From Desulfonatronospira thiodismutans ASO3-1 (lineage in GTDB: Bacteria; Desulfobacterota; Desulfovibrionia; Desulfovibrionales; Desulfonatronovibrionaceae), in assembly GCF_000174435.1 (NCBI RefSeq), contig NZ_ACJN02000003.1, positions 884,263-948,262 on the forward strand: a stretch of 64,000 nucleotides of DNA, in the 5' to 3' direction. Numbering within the stretch: position 1 is the stretch's first letter; each line of letters begins with the position of its first letter. This document shows, one piece after another, positions 1 to 62,403 of the stretch. The position numbers were made by a program, and so were the translations under genes. Under the pieces are notes generated by a model. That model worked only from the letters and a program-made list of their open reading frames with translations. It was not told where the DNA came from and made no database searches.

Positions 1-625
1 ACAGGTCCTTGCGCAGGTTGAGCCCCTTTTCCTCCCCTTTCTGGGCCAGATGCATAAGGTAACTTGGAGTGCCCACAAAACCGGTTACCCTGAGCTTCTG
101 CATCACCTCCAGCTGAGTATTGGTGTTGCCGGGCCCTGCTGGAACCACGGAACAGCCGATATTTCTCAGGGGCTCTTCAAACATGAGTCCGGCCGGGGCC
201 AGGTGGTAGCTGAAGGTGACCTGGACGATGTCCCCTGTCCTGAAACCGGTAGCATAAAAACCTTCCGTCCATCCCCAGTAATCATCAGTACGGTCCTCTG
301 GATCGAAAATGGGACCGGGGGAAAGAAAGATCCGTCTCAGCTCCCCCAGGTCCTTGGTCAACAGGCCCCCCAGGCGTGGTCCCATGGACTGCAGAAATAT
401 AAGCTCTTTTTTCTTTAAAATGGGAATATGCTTCAGATCCCCCAGGGTCTTGAACTTGTCCACGTAAAACTGCGCCCGGTCGAATCTCTTTTTCACGTCC
501 TCGGAGTACCTGTATGCATAGCTCAAAAGATCCTTGAGCTGAATCTGGTAGTATTTCTGCCTTTCGCTTTGATCCAGGACTTCCTTCCTGGTCAGGATGC
601 CTTCGGTTCGATCCTTTCGGGTCAT
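1..625 (-). CDS. PaaK-family AMP-forming CoA ligase, partial (C-terminus off the left edge)
   Basis: The first 208 codons of a gene that runs off the window. The start ATG (623-625) has AGGAGG about 10 nt upstream. The protein resembles the phenylacetate-CoA ligase (PaaK) branch of the adenylate-forming superfamily, which activates a carboxylic acid to an acyl-AMP and then a CoA thioester in the cytoplasm. Visible family features are the WGWTEGFYATGF block, GDIVQVTFSYHL, VVPAGPGNTNTQLE and VGTPSYLMHLAQKG. The usual Ser/Thr/Gly-rich ATP loop (SSGTTGKPT type) is not seen where expected; LSPGPIFDPEDRTDDY stands there instead. I recall this subtype from sulfate reducers, so the substrate should not be assumed to be phenylacetate. 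It is divergent from pilD across a 618-bp spacer. Confidence 0.8.
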   Translation of the reverse strand, partial: MTRKDRTEGILTRKEVLDQSERQKYYQIQLKDLLSYAYRYSEDVKKRFDRAQFYVDKFKTLGDLKHIPILKKKELIFLQSMGPRLGGLLTKDLGELRRIFLSPGPIFDPEDRTDDYWGWTEGFYATGFRTGDIVQVTFSYHLAPAGLMFEEPLRNIGCSVVPAGPGNTNTQLEVMQKLRVTGFVGTPSYLMHLAQKGEEKGLNLRKDL

Positions 626-1243
626 TATGATTTTCCTCCTCCTGAGGGGTGCTTTTCGCAGGATTAGAGTCAGGGATTAAAATTTAAAAAATAACATTAT
701 ACCTATATTCATAAGCAAATTCAAGAAAAATCTACTTCATGCTTCAACCACGCGAGCTTTAATCATTTTCAGTCCCAGGGTATGTGCTGACTGTAACCAT
801 TCAAGGGGTGCCAGCAATCGCCACCGGGAATAGGCCTGAGGCGTACTCCCCAGCCGTGAGCGGCAGAGCCGCCCGTGTGCAACGAAGTTGCCCGTGCCAA
901 AAAAATCTTCTCTGGCACGGGAAGCCTTCAGGCTTCACACCCGACTAAAATGCGCTTTGCTGTCCTGCGGAATTTTAGCGGGCAGGCAGGTGCTCCGCAC
1001 ACACGGTTTTAAAGAATAAAAATCCCCAGCAAGGCATTGCCCACATGGCAGACAGGCAAATTGGCATATCTCCCCCCTGAAGAGTTACTGTTGACTTGTG
1101 TATGTCTACAGGGCTAAGTTAAAGTCTATGTAATGATTTACAATCAACCATGATAACACTTTTGCCAGAACAAGAGTGAACCCAAGGCGTGCTGAACAGT
1201 TACGCCAGTTTTTTTAAACCTGCAAAACCACCCGGACTGCTGC
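626..1243. other. Intergenic spacer with promoter space and a mobile-element-like repeat
   Basis: This 618-bp gap between divergent genes holds no supportable ORF. An AT-rich stretch at about 678-740 is a reasonable place for promoters. From 793 to 1088 it is occupied by a hairpin-rich repeat listed separately. The remaining 155 bp before pilD shows no recognisable site. Confidence 0.6.
793..1088 (+). mobile_element. MITE-like element, copy A (GTAAC-type ends, 8-bp target duplication)
   Basis: The 296-bp element begins GTAACCATTCAAGGGG and ends CCCCTGAAGAGTTAC, an imperfect terminal inverted repeat. It is flanked by TGCTGACT (785-792) and TGTTGACT (1089-1096), an 8-bp direct repeat with one transition. 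It shares its arms with the inverted copy at 29036-29390. The interior is a chain of small palindromes: GCGGCAGAGCCGC, CAACGAAGTTG, an 8-bp CCCGTGCC/GGCACGGG stem, and GAAGCCT/AGGCTTC. Copy A alone carries an extra imperfect hairpin at about 941-987. It has no coding capacity. GTAA tips and 8-bp duplications are traits of IS66-family elements, so mobilisation by an IS66 transposase encoded elsewhere is the inference. Confidence 0.75.
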
Positions 1244-2014
1244 ATGGAATTTGAAAGTTTTTTTCCTGTCCTGGCCCTGATAGTGGGGCTTTGCCTGGGC
1301 AGCTTCTACAACGTCTGCATCCACCGTTATGTTACCGGCCAGTCCATAGTCCTGCCGGGATCTCACTGCCCGGGATGCGGGCACATCCTGTCCTGGTGGG
1401 AAAACATTCCCCTGATCAGTTACGTGCTGCTGCTGGGCAGATGCCGCTCATGCAGACAGGGCATAAGTCCGGTCTACCCTGTCGTGGAAAGCCTGTCGGG
1501 AATACTGGCCCTCTTTCTGGCTCTCAAATTCGGCTTCGGCCTGGAGTGGCTGGCTTACATGCTTTTTTTCGGCCTGCTTATTGTGGCTTCCTTTATTGAC
1601 CTGAAAATATACATACTGCCCGATATCATCACCCTGCCCGGGGCTTTGCTGGCCTTTGGCGCGTCATTTATCCTGCCTGTCTTCTGGCTGGACGCACTGC
1701 TGGGGGCGCTTCTGGGCGCGGGACTGTTCTGGAGCCTGCAATGGGCCTACAGGACATTCAAAAAAGTCGAAGGCCTGGGTACCGGAGACATAAAACTCAT
1801 GCTTATGCTGGGGGCCTTAGTGGGCTGGCAGGGGCTTCCAATCCAGATATTCGCCGCAGCCCTGACCGGACTGGCAGCTTCACTTATATACATGAAAAAG
1901 ACCCCCGGAGGAGGAATGCAGACCCCCATTCCCTTCGGCCCCTTTCTGGCCCTGGGAGCAGTGATATATATCCTGGCCGGCGAAAATATATGGACCTGGT
2001 ATCTGGGTGGTTGA
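1244..2014 (+). CDS. pilD: Prepilin peptidase / N-methyltransferase (type IV pilus)
   Basis: A 256-residue polytopic inner-membrane aspartic protease (A24 family) that cleaves the leader of type IV prepilins and type II secretion pseudopilins, then N-methylates the new N-terminus. The N-terminal zinc-binding loop has two Cys pairs (C42/C45 and C67/C70), as in bifunctional PilD/GspO. The two catalytic aspartates fit D119 (FIDLKIYILPD) and D182 in the GTGDIK motif. Hydrophobic segments fill the rest. No strong ribosome-binding site precedes the ATG. pilT and pilU lie 3 kb downstream on the same strand, which supports a pilus role. Confidence 0.95.
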   Translation: MEFESFFPVLALIVGLCLGSFYNVCIHRYVTGQSIVLPGSHCPGCGHILSWWENIPLISYVLLLGRCRSCRQGISPVYPVVESLSGILALFLALKFGFGLEWLAYMLFFGLLIVASFIDLKIYILPDIITLPGALLAFGASFILPVFWLDALLGALLGAGLFWSLQWAYRTFKKVEGLGTGDIKLMLMLGALVGWQGLPIQIFAAALTGLAASLIYMKKTPGGGMQTPIPFGPFLALGAVIYILAGENIWTWYLGG

Positions 2015-2096
2015 TAAAGCGCTTTTGGCATTGCCTTTTCAAGACGAAAGAATTATCTCTTGTGCCTGAAACAACAACAAAATCACTGGAGAAAAC

Positions 2097-2984
2097 ATGT
2101 TCACACAGCCGGAAAAGTCACTGAAAATCTACAAAAAACGCAAAAAACCCCTGGAACAGAAATCATTTCTCCCTAAAGAACTTACCCAGCTTGTAGACTT
2201 TATCATAAAAAATCAGCTGGAAGCCGCGGAAAAGGCTTCTCCGGAAAACAATCCCCACACATCGCTTGCATCAAGCCATGAAGTACTCAGCGGCAAGCCG
2301 CTTCTACCCAGGGAGGAGTTCCCCCTGGACTTCAAGACGTCCAGAGAACTGGCCCTGAAAATCCTCAAGTTCATGGCTGATTCCAACGAACACCTGGTCC
2401 AGTCAATGGAGGTCATCCAGAAAGAGATGGACAGCGACCCGGAATTTCTGGACATGGCCATGAAAAAATACCTTGAAGGCGACGACGACTTCTTTCGCTC
2501 CTTTGGAGAAAAAACGCCTTCAGCACCCAGGAGTCTGAACTTCCTGGTCCAGTCCGCGGCCGCCCCTTCCCTGGCGAAAACCGCCGACTCCTTAAGCCTG
2601 GCCCTGCCCGCCCAGCAGACTTTTCAGTCAGGGCACTGTCCCGTATGCGGCAGCCTGCCCTATATAGCAGAGTTAAGAGAAAAACAGGGATTTCGCTACC
2701 TGCACTGCAGTTTCTGCCACACCGCATACCGTTTCAAAAGAATGGCCTGCCCGTATTGCGCCGTGGAAAAAAGCGACTCCTTTGAATACTTTCATACGAG
2801 GGAAATTCCCGGGTTCAGGGTGGATCTCTGCACATCCTGCAATATGTACATTAAGACAATGGACTTCAGGGAAATGGACAAAAAGGCACTGCCCCCGCTG
2901 GACGACCTGGAATCACTGCCCCTGGACATCAAGGCCAAGGAAGAGGGATATATCCGCCCCACCCTGTCAGCCTGGGGCTTCTAA
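2097..2984 (+). CDS. fdhE: Formate dehydrogenase accessory protein FdhE
   Basis: 295 residues, close to the family norm. FdhE is a cytoplasmic, rubredoxin-like metal-binding protein needed for maturation of molybdenum- or tungsten-dependent formate dehydrogenase. The C-terminal half carries four Cys pairs in the family arrangement (C181/C184, C204/C207, C218/C221, C245/C248), with the CPVCGSLPYIAEL and CPYC signatures. The N-terminal 140 residues are helical and charged. mobA starts 21 bp after the stop; that pairing makes sense because formate dehydrogenase needs the bis-guanine dinucleotide cofactor. No dehydrogenase subunit gene lies in this window. Confidence 0.92.
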   Translation: MFTQPEKSLKIYKKRKKPLEQKSFLPKELTQLVDFIIKNQLEAAEKASPENNPHTSLASSHEVLSGKPLLPREEFPLDFKTSRELALKILKFMADSNEHLVQSMEVIQKEMDSDPEFLDMAMKKYLEGDDDFFRSFGEKTPSAPRSLNFLVQSAAAPSLAKTADSLSLALPAQQTFQSGHCPVCGSLPYIAELREKQGFRYLHCSFCHTAYRFKRMACPYCAVEKSDSFEYFHTREIPGFRVDLCTSCNMYIKTMDFREMDKKALPPLDDLESLPLDIKAKEEGYIRPTLSAWGF

Positions 2985-3005
2985 GATTTTTGCCTTTTAA
3001 AGCAA

Positions 3006-3608
3006 ATGACTGCTCAAGACTTAAGCGCGGTCATCCTTGCAGGCGGAAAAAGCACCCGCCTGGGCAGGGATAAGACCCGGGTCAGGATACAGGGGCAGAC
3101 CCTGGTCCAGCGCATGGTCTCCCTGGCCCGCAGGTTCTGCCGGAGCACCTGGGTGGTGGGACAGCACCCGGAGCAGGTCGACGCACCCTGGATGCTTGAT
3201 GAAATTCCGGGCATAGGCCCCATGGGAGGGATAATCACAGCCCTTAAAAGGCTCAGCTCTCCCTGCCTTGTCCTGGCCTGTGACCTGCCTGCCATGCATG
3301 AGGACTTGCTTGCCAGGCTTATTGCACACAGAAGCTCCTCTCCCGGCAGACAGTGCATGACCACTTTTATGCAGGAGCAAACCGGTTACATCGAATCCCT
3401 GGTGGCCGTTTACGAAACCCGCTGCCTGGACCTGCTCCTTGCCTCTTATGAGAAGGGATGCTACAGGTTGAGCACAGCCGTGCCTCCGGAATACCGCCTG
3501 CATATCCCTTACGGGATCCAGGAGGAGCACTTTTTCTTCAATGTAAACTACCCCGGGGACCTGGAAAAGATTCTTGCTGAAGTCAATCCAGGCACTCTGA
3601 CAGGGTAA
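3006..3608 (+). CDS. mobA: Molybdenum cofactor guanylyltransferase MobA
   Basis: A 200-residue nucleotidyltransferase that joins GMP from GTP to molybdopterin, giving the guanine dinucleotide cofactor used by formate dehydrogenase and related enzymes. The GTP-binding signature LAGGKSTRLGRDK is at residues 11-23, followed by GPMGG and the metal-binding CDLPAM with D93. It lies just behind fdhE, and the next start codon is 5 bp beyond its stop. moeA, an earlier step in cofactor synthesis, is at 17036. Confidence 0.94.
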   Translation: MTAQDLSAVILAGGKSTRLGRDKTRVRIQGQTLVQRMVSLARRFCRSTWVVGQHPEQVDAPWMLDEIPGIGPMGGIITALKRLSSPCLVLACDLPAMHEDLLARLIAHRSSSPGRQCMTTFMQEQTGYIESLVAVYETRCLDLLLASYEKGCYRLSTAVPPEYRLHIPYGIQEEHFFFNVNYPGDLEKILAEVNPGTLTG

Positions 3609-9904: not shown

Positions 9905-9989
9905 GGGGACAGTCCCGCACCTACTTGGGAATGATTTCATGAAATCGCTGGAACTTGCTGAGAAATCAAGTAGGTGCGGGACAGTCCCC
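9905..9989. repeat. Long hairpin with GGGGACAGTCCC arms
   Basis: The arms 9905-9927 and 9967-9989 are perfect 23-bp inverted repeats, beginning GGGGACAGTCCC and ending with inner ACTTG/CAAGT. The 39-nt loop contains a 14-bp palindrome, GATTTCATGAAATC. The architecture (GGGGAC start, ACTTG inner end, loop of about 38 nt) matches the hairpin inside the element at 14269-14419. It looks like a REP/MITE-type structure. Confidence 0.75.
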
Positions 9990-10023: not shown

Positions 10024-10095
10024 ATGAATTCCTGAATCCCCCAATTCCTGAATTCTTGAATTCCTGAATCCCCCAATCCCCCAATCCCTGAATCT
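10024..10095. repeat. Degenerate GAATTCCTGAAT / CCCCCAATC tract
   Basis: About 70 bp of repeated AATTCCTGAAT and CCCCCAATC units that run up to the stop of the 73-residue protein gene. Similar tracts are at about 14150-14230 (opposite strand sense) and 29418-29475. The function is unknown. Confidence 0.6.
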
Positions 10096-12095: not shown

Positions 12096-13106
12096 ATGCG
12101 CCAAATTACAGTAACCGAACATCTGCTTGTACACCAAAAGGCCAGTCCCATGGCCACTGGGCGTTTCACCAGGCTGCTAAACGAACTTATCCTTGCCGCC
12201 AAAATTATATCCAGGGAGGTGAACAAGGCCGGGCTGGTGAATGTCCTGGGTCTTACCGGGGACACCAATGTCCAGGGAGAGGAAGTCCAGAAGCTGGATG
12301 AACTGGCCAACTCCATCCTCATATATCGCATGCAGAGGGCCGGCTTCCTCTGTGCCATGGCTTCCGAGGAAAATGCAGACCTCATAGAAATCCCCTCAAA
12401 GTTCGCCCAGGGTGATTATATTCTGCTTTTCGATCCCCTGGACGGTTCCAGCAACATAGACGTAAACGTAAGTATCGGAACCATTTTTTCCATTTTCCGG
12501 CGCACCCGCGAGAATGGCCCGGTATACATGGAAGAGGTACTGCAGAAAGGCGAGAACCAGGTGGCTGCAGGGTATTTCATTTACGGCTCCTCCACCATGA
12601 TGGTCTATACCACGGGCAGCGGAGTGCACGGGTTTACACTGGATCCCAGCGTGGGGGAATTTCTGCTCTCCCACCCCAACATCAAGACCCCGGAACAGGG
12701 GAAAGTCTACTCTGTGAATGAAAGCTACTGGGACTACTGGGACAAACCCACCCAGGAATGCGTCAACGCCTTCAAGTCCAGCAACAACAGGCGGGGCAAG
12801 CCCTATTCCCTGCGCTACATCGGCTCCCTGGTTTCTGATTTTCACCGCAACCTTTTAAGCGGCGGCATCTTCATGTATCCCAAGGACAACCGCGACCCCA
12901 AAAAAACCAGCGGCAAGCTAAGGCTCATGTGCGAAGCCAATCCACTGGCCTACGTGGTGGAACAGGCCGGCGGGGCGGCCAGCGACGGCCAGAGAAGGAT
13001 ACTGGAAATCGACCCCCATGAACTGCACCAGAGAGTGCCCCTGTTCATAGGCTCCAAAAATGACGTGGAGCAGGCTGTAAGCTTTTACAGGGATCAGGAT
13101 GCTTAG
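12096..13106 (+). CDS. fbp: Fructose-1,6-bisphosphatase, class I
   Basis: A 336-residue cytoplasmic enzyme that hydrolyses fructose-1,6-bisphosphate to fructose-6-phosphate in gluconeogenesis. Metal and substrate motifs are intact: SEEN (90-93), the [11 protein letters not shown] signature (112-122), and the C-terminal [21 protein letters not shown] region. GGGAGG lies 10 bases before the ATG. It overlaps tsaD by 8 bp. A gluconeogenic enzyme together with acs at 34926 fits growth on C1/C2 compounds. Confidence 0.96.
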
Positions 13107-14184
13107 CCTGGGAATAGAGACTTCCTGCGACGAAACCGCCCTGGCCCTTGTTGATGAAGGCCGGATACTGCAGGAGGTCATGTTTTCCCAGGTGGACAAG
13201 CACTCCATTTTCGGTGGCGTAGTGCCTGAAATGGCCTCCCGGGAGCACCTGCGCAAGCTGCAGCCCCTGTGGCACAGCCTTCTTAAGAAAAGCGAACGCC
13301 GGGCCGGGGATGTCGAGCTAATTGCAGTGGCCCGGGGGCCCGGGCTGCTGGGCTGCCTCCTGGTGGGCCTGGGCTTTGCAAAGGGCCTGGCCATGGGCCT
13401 GAAAATCCCCCTGGTGGGAGTAAACCACCTGCATGCCCACCTCATGGCCCCGGCGCTGGAACAGGAGATTGAATTCCCGGCCGTGGGCCTGCTGGTTTCC
13501 GGGGGCCATACCAGCCTGTATAAAATTGACTCCAGCATCGAATTTGAACTGCTGGGCCGTACACTGGACGACGCAGCCGGAGAGGCCTTTGACAAGACGG
13601 CCAGGGCCTTGAACCTGCCGTACCCCGGAGGTGTCTACATTGACCGCTTCGCAAGCTTTGCAGAGCCGGACCCGGATATGTTTCCCAGGCCATACCTGGA
13701 CAACCCGAGCCTCGACTTCAGCTTCAGCGGACTCAAAACAGCCCTGGTCAATCACATCCGCAAGCACCCCGGGCTTGTTCAGGAAAATCCCCTGGAAATA
13801 ACTCCGGACTCCACACCGGACCCGGAACTGGCCAGGGTATGTGCCTCATTCAACCTGGCAGTGGCCGAAACCCTGCAGGCCAAGCTGCAAAGGGCCGTTT
13901 CTGCCACTGGGGTACAAAACGTTATTCTAGCCGGGGGGGTTGCAGCCAATTCCATGATCCGTCAAAAAACAATAAAGCTTTGCAGCAGCATGGGCCTGCG
14001 TCTTATTCTGCCCAGCCTGAACCTCTGCACGGACAACGCCTCCATGATAGCCTGCTGCGGCGAAATTCTGGCCAGGCACGGCCTGTATCACGACCTGGAA
14101 CTGGAAGCAGTGCCCAGGGGTAGAAAAATACCCTGGGACTATTGTGGATTGAAAAATTCGGGGATTGAGGAATTCAGGAATTGA
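13099..14184 (+). CDS. tsaD: tRNA N6-adenosine threonylcarbamoyltransferase TsaD
   Basis: A 361-residue Kae1/Gcp-family protein that transfers threonylcarbamoyl to A37 of ANN-decoding tRNAs, working with TsaB, TsaC and TsaE. Signatures: GIETSCDET at the N-terminus, the metal-binding H110-x3-H114 in [14 protein letters not shown], and the late [13 protein letters not shown] and [10 protein letters not shown]. The start overlaps fbp by 8 bp. The C-terminal codons run into the start of a degenerate GAATTC-type tract, so the last residues (NSGIEEFRN) may be repeat-derived. Confidence 0.95.
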
Positions 14185-14232
14185 GGAATTCAGGAATTGA
14201 GGGATTGAAGGATTCAGGGATTGAGGATTTAA
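14150..14232. repeat. Degenerate GGAATTGAG / GAATTCAGG tract
   Basis: Tandem degenerate units of about 9-10 bp (GGAATTCAG, GGAATTGAG, GGGATTGAA) begin inside the last codons of tsaD and run past its stop. It is the reverse-sense counterpart of the tracts at 10024 and 29418. Confidence 0.6.
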
Positions 14233-14268
14233 TTTCAAACAACTTTACTTGGAAACGTTTGCAATAAG

Positions 14269-14419
14269 GTATCTGTTTAGCGCTTTGCATGTGGCATGGG
14301 GACTGGCTCTTCCGGGACCCACTTGTCCCAAAAAATGAGATGTTTTAAGCACAAAATGATGCTCAAGTGGGTCCCGGAGTGCCTGTCCCCTGCTTTCCTT
14401 AAAAGAGCTAAACAGATAC
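14269..14419. mobile_element. MITE-like element with 13-bp ends and perfect 8-bp target duplication
   Basis: The ends are GTATCTGTTTAGC (14269-14281) and its exact reverse complement (14407-14419). Immediately outside is the direct repeat GCAATAAG (14261-14268 and 14420-14427). This is the classic footprint of DNA transposition. Inside lies a long hairpin (14298-14325 with 14364-14390) that starts GGGGAC and ends with inner ACTTG/CAAGT, like the one at 9905. No coding capacity. It sits in the 287-bp spacer between tsaD and ilvD. Confidence 0.8.
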
Positions 14420-14471
14420 GCAATAAGAGACCAGACAACTTTAGAAATGATAAAACAACGAGGTTAGAGAG

Positions 14472-16139
14472 ATGCGCAGCCACAAAATGACCAGGGGAAT
14501 TGAAAAGGCCCCTCACCGCTCACTGCTTTATTCACTGGGCCTTACCCGGGAGGAGATGGAACGCCCCCTGGTGGGGGTGGTCAACTCGGCCAATGAAATC
14601 GTCCCGGGGCATCAGCACCTGAACAGAATATCCCGGGCGGTCAAGGACGGGATCCGCATGAGCGGTGGCACACCCATGGAATTTTCCACCATCGCTGTTT
14701 GCGACGGCCTGGCCATGAACCATGCCGGGATGCGCTTCAGCCTGCCCAGCCGGGAAATCATCGCCGACTCGGTGGAAATCATGGCCTCAGCGCATCCATT
14801 TGATGCCCTGGTGCTTATCCCCAATTGTGACAAGGCGGTTCCAGGGATGCTCATGGCCATGATCAGGATGAACCTGCCCTCAATAATTGTCAGCGGCGGC
14901 CCCATGCTGGCCGGAGAAGACCGGGGAAAGACCGTGGATCTCATTTCAGTTTTTGAAGGTGTGGGCAGGGTCAAAAGCGGGCAGATAGACCAAGAAGAAC
15001 TGCAAAGCCTGGAACAAAACGCCTGTCCCGGGTGCGGTTCCTGTTCAGGCATGTTCACCGCCAATTCCATGAACTGTCTGTGCGAGGCTATCGGCCTGGG
15101 ACTGCCCGGAAACGGAACGATTCCCGCTGTGTACAGCGAGCGCATCAGGCTGGCCAAGACAGCCGGCATGAAGGTGATGCAGCTTCTAAAGGACGACCTG
15201 CGCCCCAAAAGCATCCTGACACCCAAGAGCGTGGCCAATGCCGTGGCCGTGGACATGGCCCTTGGCTGCTCCACCAATACCGTGCTGCACCTTCCTGCAG
15301 TCTTTGCCGAGGCCGGGCTGGAACTGAACCTGGACATCTTCGATGTCATGAGCAGAAAGACTCCCAACCTCTGCCGTCTTTCACCGGCCGGTCCGCACCA
15401 CCTGCAGGACCTGCACCGCGCCGGGGGCATCCCTGCCGTTGTCTCTGAGCTTGCCGGCAAAAGCATTTTCGACCTCAACTCCATGACCGTAACCGGCAAC
15501 TCCTGGAGAAAGAACCTGGAGGATCTCCAGGCCCGGGTTCTGGACCCTCAGGTAATCCGCTCAATGGACAATCCCTACAGTTCGGGGGGCGGAATAGCCA
15601 TTCTGCGGGGCAATCTCGCCCCTCATGGTGCCGTGGTCAAGCAGTCCGCGGTCACTGCGGAAATGATGGTCCAGACCGGTCCGGCCAGGGTGTTTGAAGG
15701 CGAGGAGGATGCTGTGCAGGCCATTCTTGATGGACAAATCAGGCAGGGGGACATTGTCATCATAAGAAATGAAGGTCCCAAGGGCGGCCCCGGAATGCGC
15801 GAAATGCTGACCCCCACCTCAGCCATAGCAGGGATGGGGCTTGACAAACACGTTTCTCTGATCACTGACGGACGTTTCAGCGGCGGCACCAGGGGGGCGG
15901 CCATAGGCCATGTTTCCCCGGAAGCCGCAGAGGGCGGCCCCATTGCCCTGGTCATGGAGGGTGACGAGATCAGTATAGACATCTACAAGGGATCCTTGAA
16001 CCTTAATGTGTCCGACCAGGAGCTGGAAAAAAGAAGACAGAGCCTGAAACCCCTGGAAAAAGAAGTAGATTCCCCGCTTCTGCGCAGGTATGCCCGCATG
16101 GCCGGATCCGCCTCTACCGGGGCTTCCTTCAGGACTTAG
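14472..16139 (+). CDS. ilvD: Dihydroxy-acid dehydratase
   Basis: A 555-residue iron-sulfur enzyme that dehydrates 2,3-dihydroxy-3-methylbutanoate and the isoleucine counterpart to 2-keto acids, in branched-chain amino-acid synthesis. Conserved blocks: [10 protein letters not shown] near the N-terminus, [11 protein letters not shown] (C119), [19 protein letters not shown] (C185, C188, C191), and a C-terminal [16 protein letters not shown]. The cluster and magnesium ligands appear intact. The length is normal. Other ilv genes are absent from the window. The methyltransferase start is 3 bp after the stop. Confidence 0.95.
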
Positions 16140-29035: not shown

Positions 29036-29390
29036 GTAACTCTTCAGGGGGGGAGATATGCCAATTTGCCTGTCTGCCAGACGGGTAATGCCTTGCTGGG
29101 GATCTTTTATTCTTCAAAACCGTGTGTGCGGAGCACCAGTGTGAAGCCTGAAGGCTTCCCGTGCCGGAGAAGATTTTTTGGCACGGGCAACTTCGTTGCT
29201 CATCCCAGTGAAACCAGCTACGCTGACCCAGCACTCACTTTTCCATTTGTTTGCTTGTGATGAAACCGAAATTATTAAAGTGAGTGCTGGGTGTTTCACG
29301 GGACAGGCGGGCGGCTCTGCCGCTCACGGCTGGGGAGTACGCCTCAAGTCTATTCCCGGTGGGGATTGCTGGCACCCCCTGAATGGTTAC
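29036..29390 (-). mobile_element. MITE-like element, copy B (inverted relative to copy A)
   Basis: 355 bp, with ends GTAACTCTTCAGGGG and CCCCTGAATGGTTAC. The flanks ATACTGAT (29028-29035) and ATATTGAT (29391-29398) are an 8-bp direct repeat with one transition. The arms match copy A (793-1088) in reverse. It lacks the hairpin that is special to copy A but has its own insertion of about 107 bp holding a perfect 16-bp inverted repeat (29226-29241 and 29277-29292). No ORF. Confidence 0.75.
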
Positions 29391-43399: not shown

Positions 43400-43576
43400 G
43401 TAACCATTCAGGGGGATGCCGGAATCGGCCTGGGGACAGTCCCCGCGACACCTTGCCTTCACAATCGCCAAAATTACAAGCGCAAAATTCCGTGATCCTG
43501 CACAGACCTACACAGCGAGGGACAGTCCCCAGGCCTTGTGCCAGTAATCAACACCGAGGACCCCCTGAATGGTTAC
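43400..43576. mobile_element. MITE-like element, copy C, between ptsH and ptsI
   Basis: The 177-bp element starts GTAACCATTCAGGGGG and ends with its reverse complement. Inner GGGGACAGTCCC modules lie near each end (43432-43444 and about 43518-43530). The outer arms of about 45 bp match the element at 62231-62403, while the middle differs. The flanks (ACGGGCAG, CCGTCCAG) match at only five of eight positions, so a target duplication is not clear. Its right end is 8 bp from the ptsH stop codon. Confidence 0.72.
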
Positions 43577-62230: not shown

Positions 62231-62403
62231 GTAACCATTCAGGGGTCTGTTACCGGCCATGGGACAGTCCCAGCGAAACTTTTCCTGCACAATACAAAAA
62301 GTGCAGACGGGAAATTTTATGAAACTGCATAATCATTACTTAGCGGGGACAGTCCCCTGGCCTTGTGCAATTAGTCACCACTGAAGACCCACTGAATGGT
62401 TAC
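62231..62403. mobile_element. MITE-like element, copy D, inserted at a start codon
   Basis: The 173-bp element has ends GTAACCATTCAGGGG and its reverse complement with one mismatch (CCCACTGAATGGTTAC). GGGACAGTCCC modules lie at 62261-62271 and 62345-62357. Flanks ATAAACAT (62223-62230) and ATGAATAT (62404-62411) are an 8-bp direct repeat with two transitions. The right-hand repeat is the start of the glycosyltransferase gene, so the original target was the gene's own ATG. Confidence 0.75.

Follow-up and report, generated by a model that had tools for sequence, protein, structure and literature searches.

A MITE between tsaD and ilvD in Desulfonatronospira thiodismutans and the probably separate hairpin unit at its center

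Results

The element and its surroundings

The window analyzed here is a stretch of 64,000 nucleotides from Desulfonatronospira thiodismutans ASO3-1 (contig NZ_ACJN02000003.1, positions 884,263 to 948,262); its own genome is called G000 below. Within it, tsaD (13099-14184, forward strand; NCBIfam TIGR03723) and ilvD (14472-16139, forward strand; NCBIfam TIGR00110) are the upstream and downstream neighbors of a 151-bp element and both lie outside it. The element is bounded by 13-bp terminal inverted repeats, GTATCTGTTTAGC on the left (14269-14281, forward strand) and its complement on the right (14407-14419, reverse strand), which are flanked by two perfect copies of the 8-bp target duplication GCAATAAG (14261-14268 and 14420-14427, both forward strand). 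These ends and this duplication had been proposed in a sequence-only reading of the window, whose coordinates proved exact to the base. The inner hairpin spans 14298-14390 (forward strand), where a middle layer, GGGGACTGGCTC and GTGCCTGTCCCC, encloses a core hairpin at 14311-14378 (forward strand) of the form TCCG-GGACCCACTTG ... CAAGTGGGTCC-CGGA. This core is a member of a family that we write YCCN-GCAC-YYAYTT-K, with GGAC in place of GCAC. Each strand of the 151-bp element folds into a single long arm, with energies of -79.1 and -80.5 kcal/mol for the two strands (z about -10). The 151 bp contain no ORF of at least 80 aa, no run of T follows the hairpin, and an Rfam scan of the window returned no match. 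Like MITEs, the element is short, noncoding, and ends in perfect inverted repeats.

Copies, duplications, and empty sites

The element end matched 53 + 48 times in G000 (at most one mismatch), compared to 1 + 0 times for the pattern read backwards; with 101 matches against one in the control, the end is not a product of chance. Searching the genome and its relatives for the same ends recovered other copies, the lack of which would have told against the sequence-only reading, and G000 contains 40 full matches to the complete 151 bp. Identity is 98-100% over all or almost all of the length in 30 of these and 86-98% in the other 10; the near-identity of the copies therefore points to recent spread. 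A perfect 8-bp duplication flanks 34 of the 40 (L061 and L062 were read by eye), three have one mismatch (L033, L053, L074), one has two (L060), one duplicates 7 bp (L018), and one has no duplication (L013). The duplicated 8-mers vary among the copies. When loci were pooled, an exact 8-bp duplication was present at 65 of 132 distinct sites and at none with shuffled partners.

An orthologous empty site exists in genome G042, whose tsaD-ilvD spacer lacks the element and matches the joined flanks from the window at 79% over 57 bp spanning the insertion point. The sequence-only reading had named, as an observation that would speak against it, an 8-mer doubled in a relative without the insertion; G042 carries one GCAACAAA, not two. 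In four further genomes (G022, G037, G032, G069), 29-44 bp without the element lie between the matched stretches of tsaD and ilvD. There are also two paralogous empty sites. The surroundings of the copy at L012 have an uninterrupted version in L013 (99% over 107 bp), and the copy at L016 sits inside a GTAAC-type MITE of which L243, L201, and L256 hold uninterrupted versions (91-94%). The orthologous and paralogous empty sites and the 34 perfect duplications bear out the proposal of a mobile element that duplicates 8 bp. By these comparisons, the 151-bp element is a non-autonomous DNA transposon (MITE), intergenic here, which duplicates 8 bp of its target.

Among the 297 genomes of the order, GTATCTGTTYAGC is abundant in only five, all of one family, with exact counts of 87 (G000), 423 (G022), 8 (G032), 85 (G017), and 25 (G054). 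Most contigs matching the end motif are recorded as Desulfonatronospira and Desulfonatronovibrio. The motif also occurs on three contigs (L157, L226, L237) filed under Actinomycetota, Methanomassiliicoccaceae, and the PVC group, which are possibly misbinned. The MITE variants at L060, L062, L054, L071, and L250 contain TCACGCC...GGCGTGA palindromes, either instead of one arm of the core or in addition to it; a further small palindrome apparently occupies this position. Taken alone, the 151-bp MITE adds a new family to a kind of element already known.

Search for a partner transposase

The sequence-only reading had pointed to a transposase with the same ends as a thing to look for; none was found among the IS66, DDE_Tnp_1, Mutator, and IS6 genes searched (PF03050, PF01609, PF00872, PF13610). 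None of the 16 PF03050 matches in G000 and the three in five relatives has GTATC ends; the ends at L275 and L276 could not be fixed. The IS66 genes of G000 have ends of their own (GTAAGCGTCCA; GTGTRCTTTCGGCAG), and five of nine IS66-A copies have 8-bp duplications. A scan of L144-L234 for inverted ends that have matching 8-mers and lie 50-7000 bp from each other gave no pair longer than 364 bp. Near unpaired ends (L144-L274) there were 37 candidate ORFs of at least 200 aa, none of which was recognizable as a transposase from 70 residues each. ISL3 and IS1595 are further transposase families with 8-bp duplications.

At L277 (genome G022, 242-3009), a GTATC-like MITE has a 2622-bp IS66 with ends GTAACTTCTCAATAG and the 8-bp duplication CAAAAACA in its loop. 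This pair was considered as partner of the 151-bp MITE and rejected; it is an IS66 with ends GTAACTTCTCA that went into a related MITE at the loop. IS200-like (REP-associated) tyrosine transposase genes form clusters in G000, some of them tandem, at about 18-32 kb of C2 and about 275-294 kb of C3.

Other hairpins of the window and other end types

A second hairpin lies at 9905-9989 (forward strand), with its core, TCCC-GCACCTACTTG ... CAAGTAGGTGC-GGGA, at 9913-9981. As had been claimed, it shares with the hairpin at 14298-14390 the GGGGAC start and the inner ACTTG/CAAGT. Its assignment to the GTAAC type has to be corrected: from flanks read by eye, the hairpin seems to lie in the remains of a decayed element of a third, CACTAC type (CACTACAGCGAAAC, 4-bp duplication). 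No intact CACTAC end was found there. AT-rich near-tandem repeats of the GGATTGAGGAATTCA type adjoin both hairpin elements (14150-14240 and 10030-10090) and are matched elsewhere in the genus.

A third core hairpin, absent from the sequence-only reading, occupies 29227-29291 (forward strand; CCCA-GCACTCACTTT ... AAAGTGAGTGC-TGGG, hairpin proper 29231-29287) and sits between GTAAC-type ends at 29036 and 29378. The stretch 29036-29390, with these ends about 355 bp apart, holds further palindromic material as well as this hairpin. Two GTAAC-type MITEs of about 175 bp each lie at 43400-43576 and 62231-62403; across G000, ends of this type number 203 + 203 (at most one mismatch) versus 0 + 2 in the control. 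In G000, L374, L375, and L376 hold GCACTCACTTT...AAAGTGAGTGC hairpins with TCCA/TGGA flanks, and the surroundings are nearly alike in the three places, which therefore represent a further repeat that hosts the hairpin.

The GTAACCATTCAGGGG end type has an exact 8-bp duplication at 29 of 76 sites (none when shuffled), and the CACTACAGCGA[AC]AC end type has an exact 4-bp duplication at 27 of 51 sites (6 when shuffled), mostly [TAC]TAN. Contexts of these end types contain 125 distinct GGGGAC hairpins. The earlier count of two end types with related hairpin cores was thus right and understated; at least three end types carry such cores, with duplications of 8 bp and 4 bp. Since elements that share the middle layer and the cores have at least two duplication lengths, different transposases probably move them. 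Nested MITE copies were seen in L191 and L243, and elements whose left and right halves are of different end types in L220, L265, L150, and L227. We infer that MITEs first became nested and then recombined through the middle layer that they share, which gave the mixed elements.

The core hairpin as an order-wide repeat

Features common to the core at 14311-14378, the one at 9913-9981, and the GCACTTATTTTT core were combined into a search pattern (GSACYYAYTTK, 20-50 nt, complement). This pattern occurs in 23 of the 297 genomes of the order: 13 in the family of the window, six in f2, three in f4, and one in f5. There are 185 matches in G000 and 283 in G022, compared to one match per strand for the backward control in each of three genomes. 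Exact GTATCTGTTYAGC is found once or not at all in 17 of the 23 genomes with the core hairpin.

In 28 unrelated flank groups the conservation outside the core is 96% G at +2, 89% G at +3, and 97% A/G at +4, and the sequence is mixed from +5. These sharp edges delimit the unit as YCCN-GCAC-YYAYTT-K ... plus complement; the conservation inside the core is in part by construction, because some stem letters were specified in the pattern, which also required 20-50 nt of loop. Beyond 4-5 nt, the flanks pair at a mean of 8.4 of 20 positions (7.2 when shuffled), with at least 12 pairs in 5 of 28, and at L366 not even the first 4-5 nt pair. Most flanks are thus not palindromic beyond 4-5 nt, and insertion at a stem tip is demonstrated for some contexts only. 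Neither a clean empty/filled pair that fixes the insertion site of the hairpin itself nor a duplication at the hairpin edges was found, and the alignment of empty and filled GTAACTATTCAGCAC MITEs with a loose motif gave no hairpin insertion site. Nine viral contigs match the bare arms; none had YCC/GGR flanks by eye, and viral hairpins were set aside as chance matches. Two of these contigs, L379 and L384, look like tandem repeats.

Rfam placed the core hairpin within class A RNase P RNA at three loci (L330, L315, L336) and within a cobalamin riboswitch at five (L331, L333, L334, L347, L351). These eight placements are from 40 loci scanned, a scan that left out L321, L325, L326, and most of L354-L376; L332, L335, and L337 had no Rfam match at E<=0.1. 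In the Rfam alignment of RNase P RNA, the L330 hairpin forms the tip of an arm, which we take to be P12, at model position 136, and hairpins like it occur in L315 at positions 30, 136, and 335. L334 has a second riboswitch in which this arm lacks the hairpin.

Stem variation between lineages and within MITE copies

The sequence-only reading had suggested that the stems co-vary. For the comparison between lineages, the free columns of 51 representative stems were set against shuffles. Position 6 is paired in 51 of 51 stems (shuffled mean 26.3, max 37), positions 5 and 8 in 50 each (mean 28.3, max 36, and mean 27.3, max 40, respectively), position 11 in 47 (mean 30.9, max 39), and position 12 in 34 (mean 19.2, max 27). 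Position -1 is paired in 37 of the 51 (mean 14.8, max 25; G 13, C 15, A 5, T 4). Within MITEs, 52 distinct A-core copies (out of 53 elements, 146-156 bp) showed 39 one-sided changes and no compensated change in 728 cells. Co-variation therefore holds between hairpin lineages, with up to 51 of 51 paired where about 27 are expected, and does not hold within MITE copies, so that it is no sign of selection on each copy. Together, the compensation between lineages and the one-sided changes within MITEs imply a stem that is renewed from one lineage to another and decays within the copies. The pattern fits a unit whose active source depends on the hairpin; it does not suit selection on every copy.

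Discussion

We favor, with a probability of about 0.8, a reading in which two things are nested at 14261-14427: an outer, recent MITE and an inner, separate mobile hairpin unit. Mobilization of the 151-bp MITE presumably depends on a DDE transposase, acting in trans, that would read GTATCTGTTTAGC. The inner unit is a hairpin, about 50-75 nt long, whose edges are fixed and whose stem follows the pattern YCCN-GCAC-YYAYTT-K; that it is a repeat family is observed, that it moves we infer. Its separateness is supported by its presence in genomes with at most one GTATCTGTTYAGC, in RNase P RNA, and in cobalamin riboswitches, by its sharp edges in the 28 unrelated flank groups, by the compensated variation between lineages, and by the elements with mixed ends. 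Most likely the hairpin entered palindromic centers and stem tips separately and later rode on each MITE, and nesting plus recombination via the shared middle layer would have given the mixed elements. Alternatively, each MITE center could have been filled once and then copied.

A wider version of this reading is tentative. Possibly, a mobile hairpin of about 50-75 nt inserts specifically at stem-loop tips throughout the order. Its hosts would include RNase P RNA, at the P3, P12, and 3' arms, one arm of the cobalamin riboswitch, and unrelated MITEs at their centers, and its stem, under the fixed rule YCCN-GCAC-YYAYTT-K, may change along with a lineage-specific enzyme that reads it.

Somewhat unlikely, in our estimate, is a REP-like palindrome that owes its spread to a RAYT/TIRYT enzyme, an IS200-like tyrosine (HUH) transposase that works on single-stranded hairpins. 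Such a transposase is a candidate for the hairpin mover, as a hypothesis: G000 has 31 PF01797 matches, three tested proteins match NCBIfam REP_Tyr_transpos below the cut-off, the GGGGACAG arm fits the published GGGGWSAS, and GGGGACAGTCTC lies upstream of one gene type in G000. However, the core hairpin is beside the gene at none of 20 loci (the match at L097 is a nearby MITE copy), so that adjacency lends no support to mobilization by neighboring Y1 transposases, and the foot of the hairpin has no GTAG-type tag.

It is unlikely that the element is an ordinary MITE only, with the hairpin as its palindromic center and the likeness of the cores due to recombination between nested MITEs. Nested and mixed elements are indeed plentiful (L191, L220, L227, L243, L265, L269, L273), and short derivatives of 64-75 bp look like loss of the hairpin; nevertheless, the same stem and edges occur in genomes where the GTATC end is present once at most, in RNase P RNA, and in riboswitches. 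Least probable is a hairpin kept for an RNA role (as protein site, terminator, or processing signal) that spreads by selection and does not move, which its strong folds, compensated variation between lineages, and presence in functional RNAs would suit, but not the one-sided decay of stems within MITE copies (39 to 0), nor the window hairpin, which has no T run after it and lies in a window without an Rfam match.

If the nested reading is true, the hairpin matters more than the MITE alone. As one short unit shared by the centers of unrelated transposons, an essential ribozyme, and a riboswitch, it would offer a natural example of a mobile element that is tolerated for extending a stem, and would allow a direct test of how structured RNAs gain variable arms and of the choice of hairpin tips by some transposases. 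The literature that we searched, to which subscription papers mostly did not belong, yielded no description of the hairpin family or of the MITE ends.

As for known systems, PMC3733652 describes bacterial MITEs as having 70-300 bp, inverted ends of 15-30 bp, and no coding capacity. The element resembles them in its 151 bp, the lack of a gene, inverted ends, target duplication, and many copies; it differs in its 13-bp ends, in having no partner transposase in the families searched, and in its center, a hairpin common to other end types and to RNA genes. IS66 elements share with the MITE an 8-bp duplication and ends that start with GTA, and the ends of its sister MITEs, GTAACCATTCAGG and GTAACTATTCAGC, start with GTAA, as do the IS66 ends exemplified by GTAAGCGTCC and GTAACCGTCC in PMC12888890. 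In contrast, the end of the 151-bp MITE starts with GTAT, and no examined IS66 gene bears it. Ends and duplication length thus resemble those of IS66 without equaling them, and we do not file the MITE under IS66.

Like REP and TIR palindromes, the hairpins are small, have many copies, and form lineage-specific variants. In PMC3733652 and PMC6006769, GGGGWSAS is shared by the inverted repeats flanking TIRYT genes; it fits the right arm GGGGACAG, not the left arm GGGGACTG, and many hairpins in other genomes lack it. Unlike REPs, the hairpins have no GTAG/CGTC tag, the flanks at their foot reading N-G-G-A/G and then mixed in the 28 flank groups, and, save for the MITE at L097, their copies do not flank the examined tyrosine transposase genes. 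Their loops have 20-50 nt, as our pattern demanded, compared to the 2-5 nt used to find short hairpins in the REP search described in PMC6006769. Rickettsia palindromic elements and the cyanobacterial repeats known from arm P12 of RNase P RNA are two groups of repeats for which we know of neither a GCAC-YYAYTT stem rule nor a place in MITE centers. Likened by description, they and the hairpin are palindromes inserted in genes, RNA genes included.
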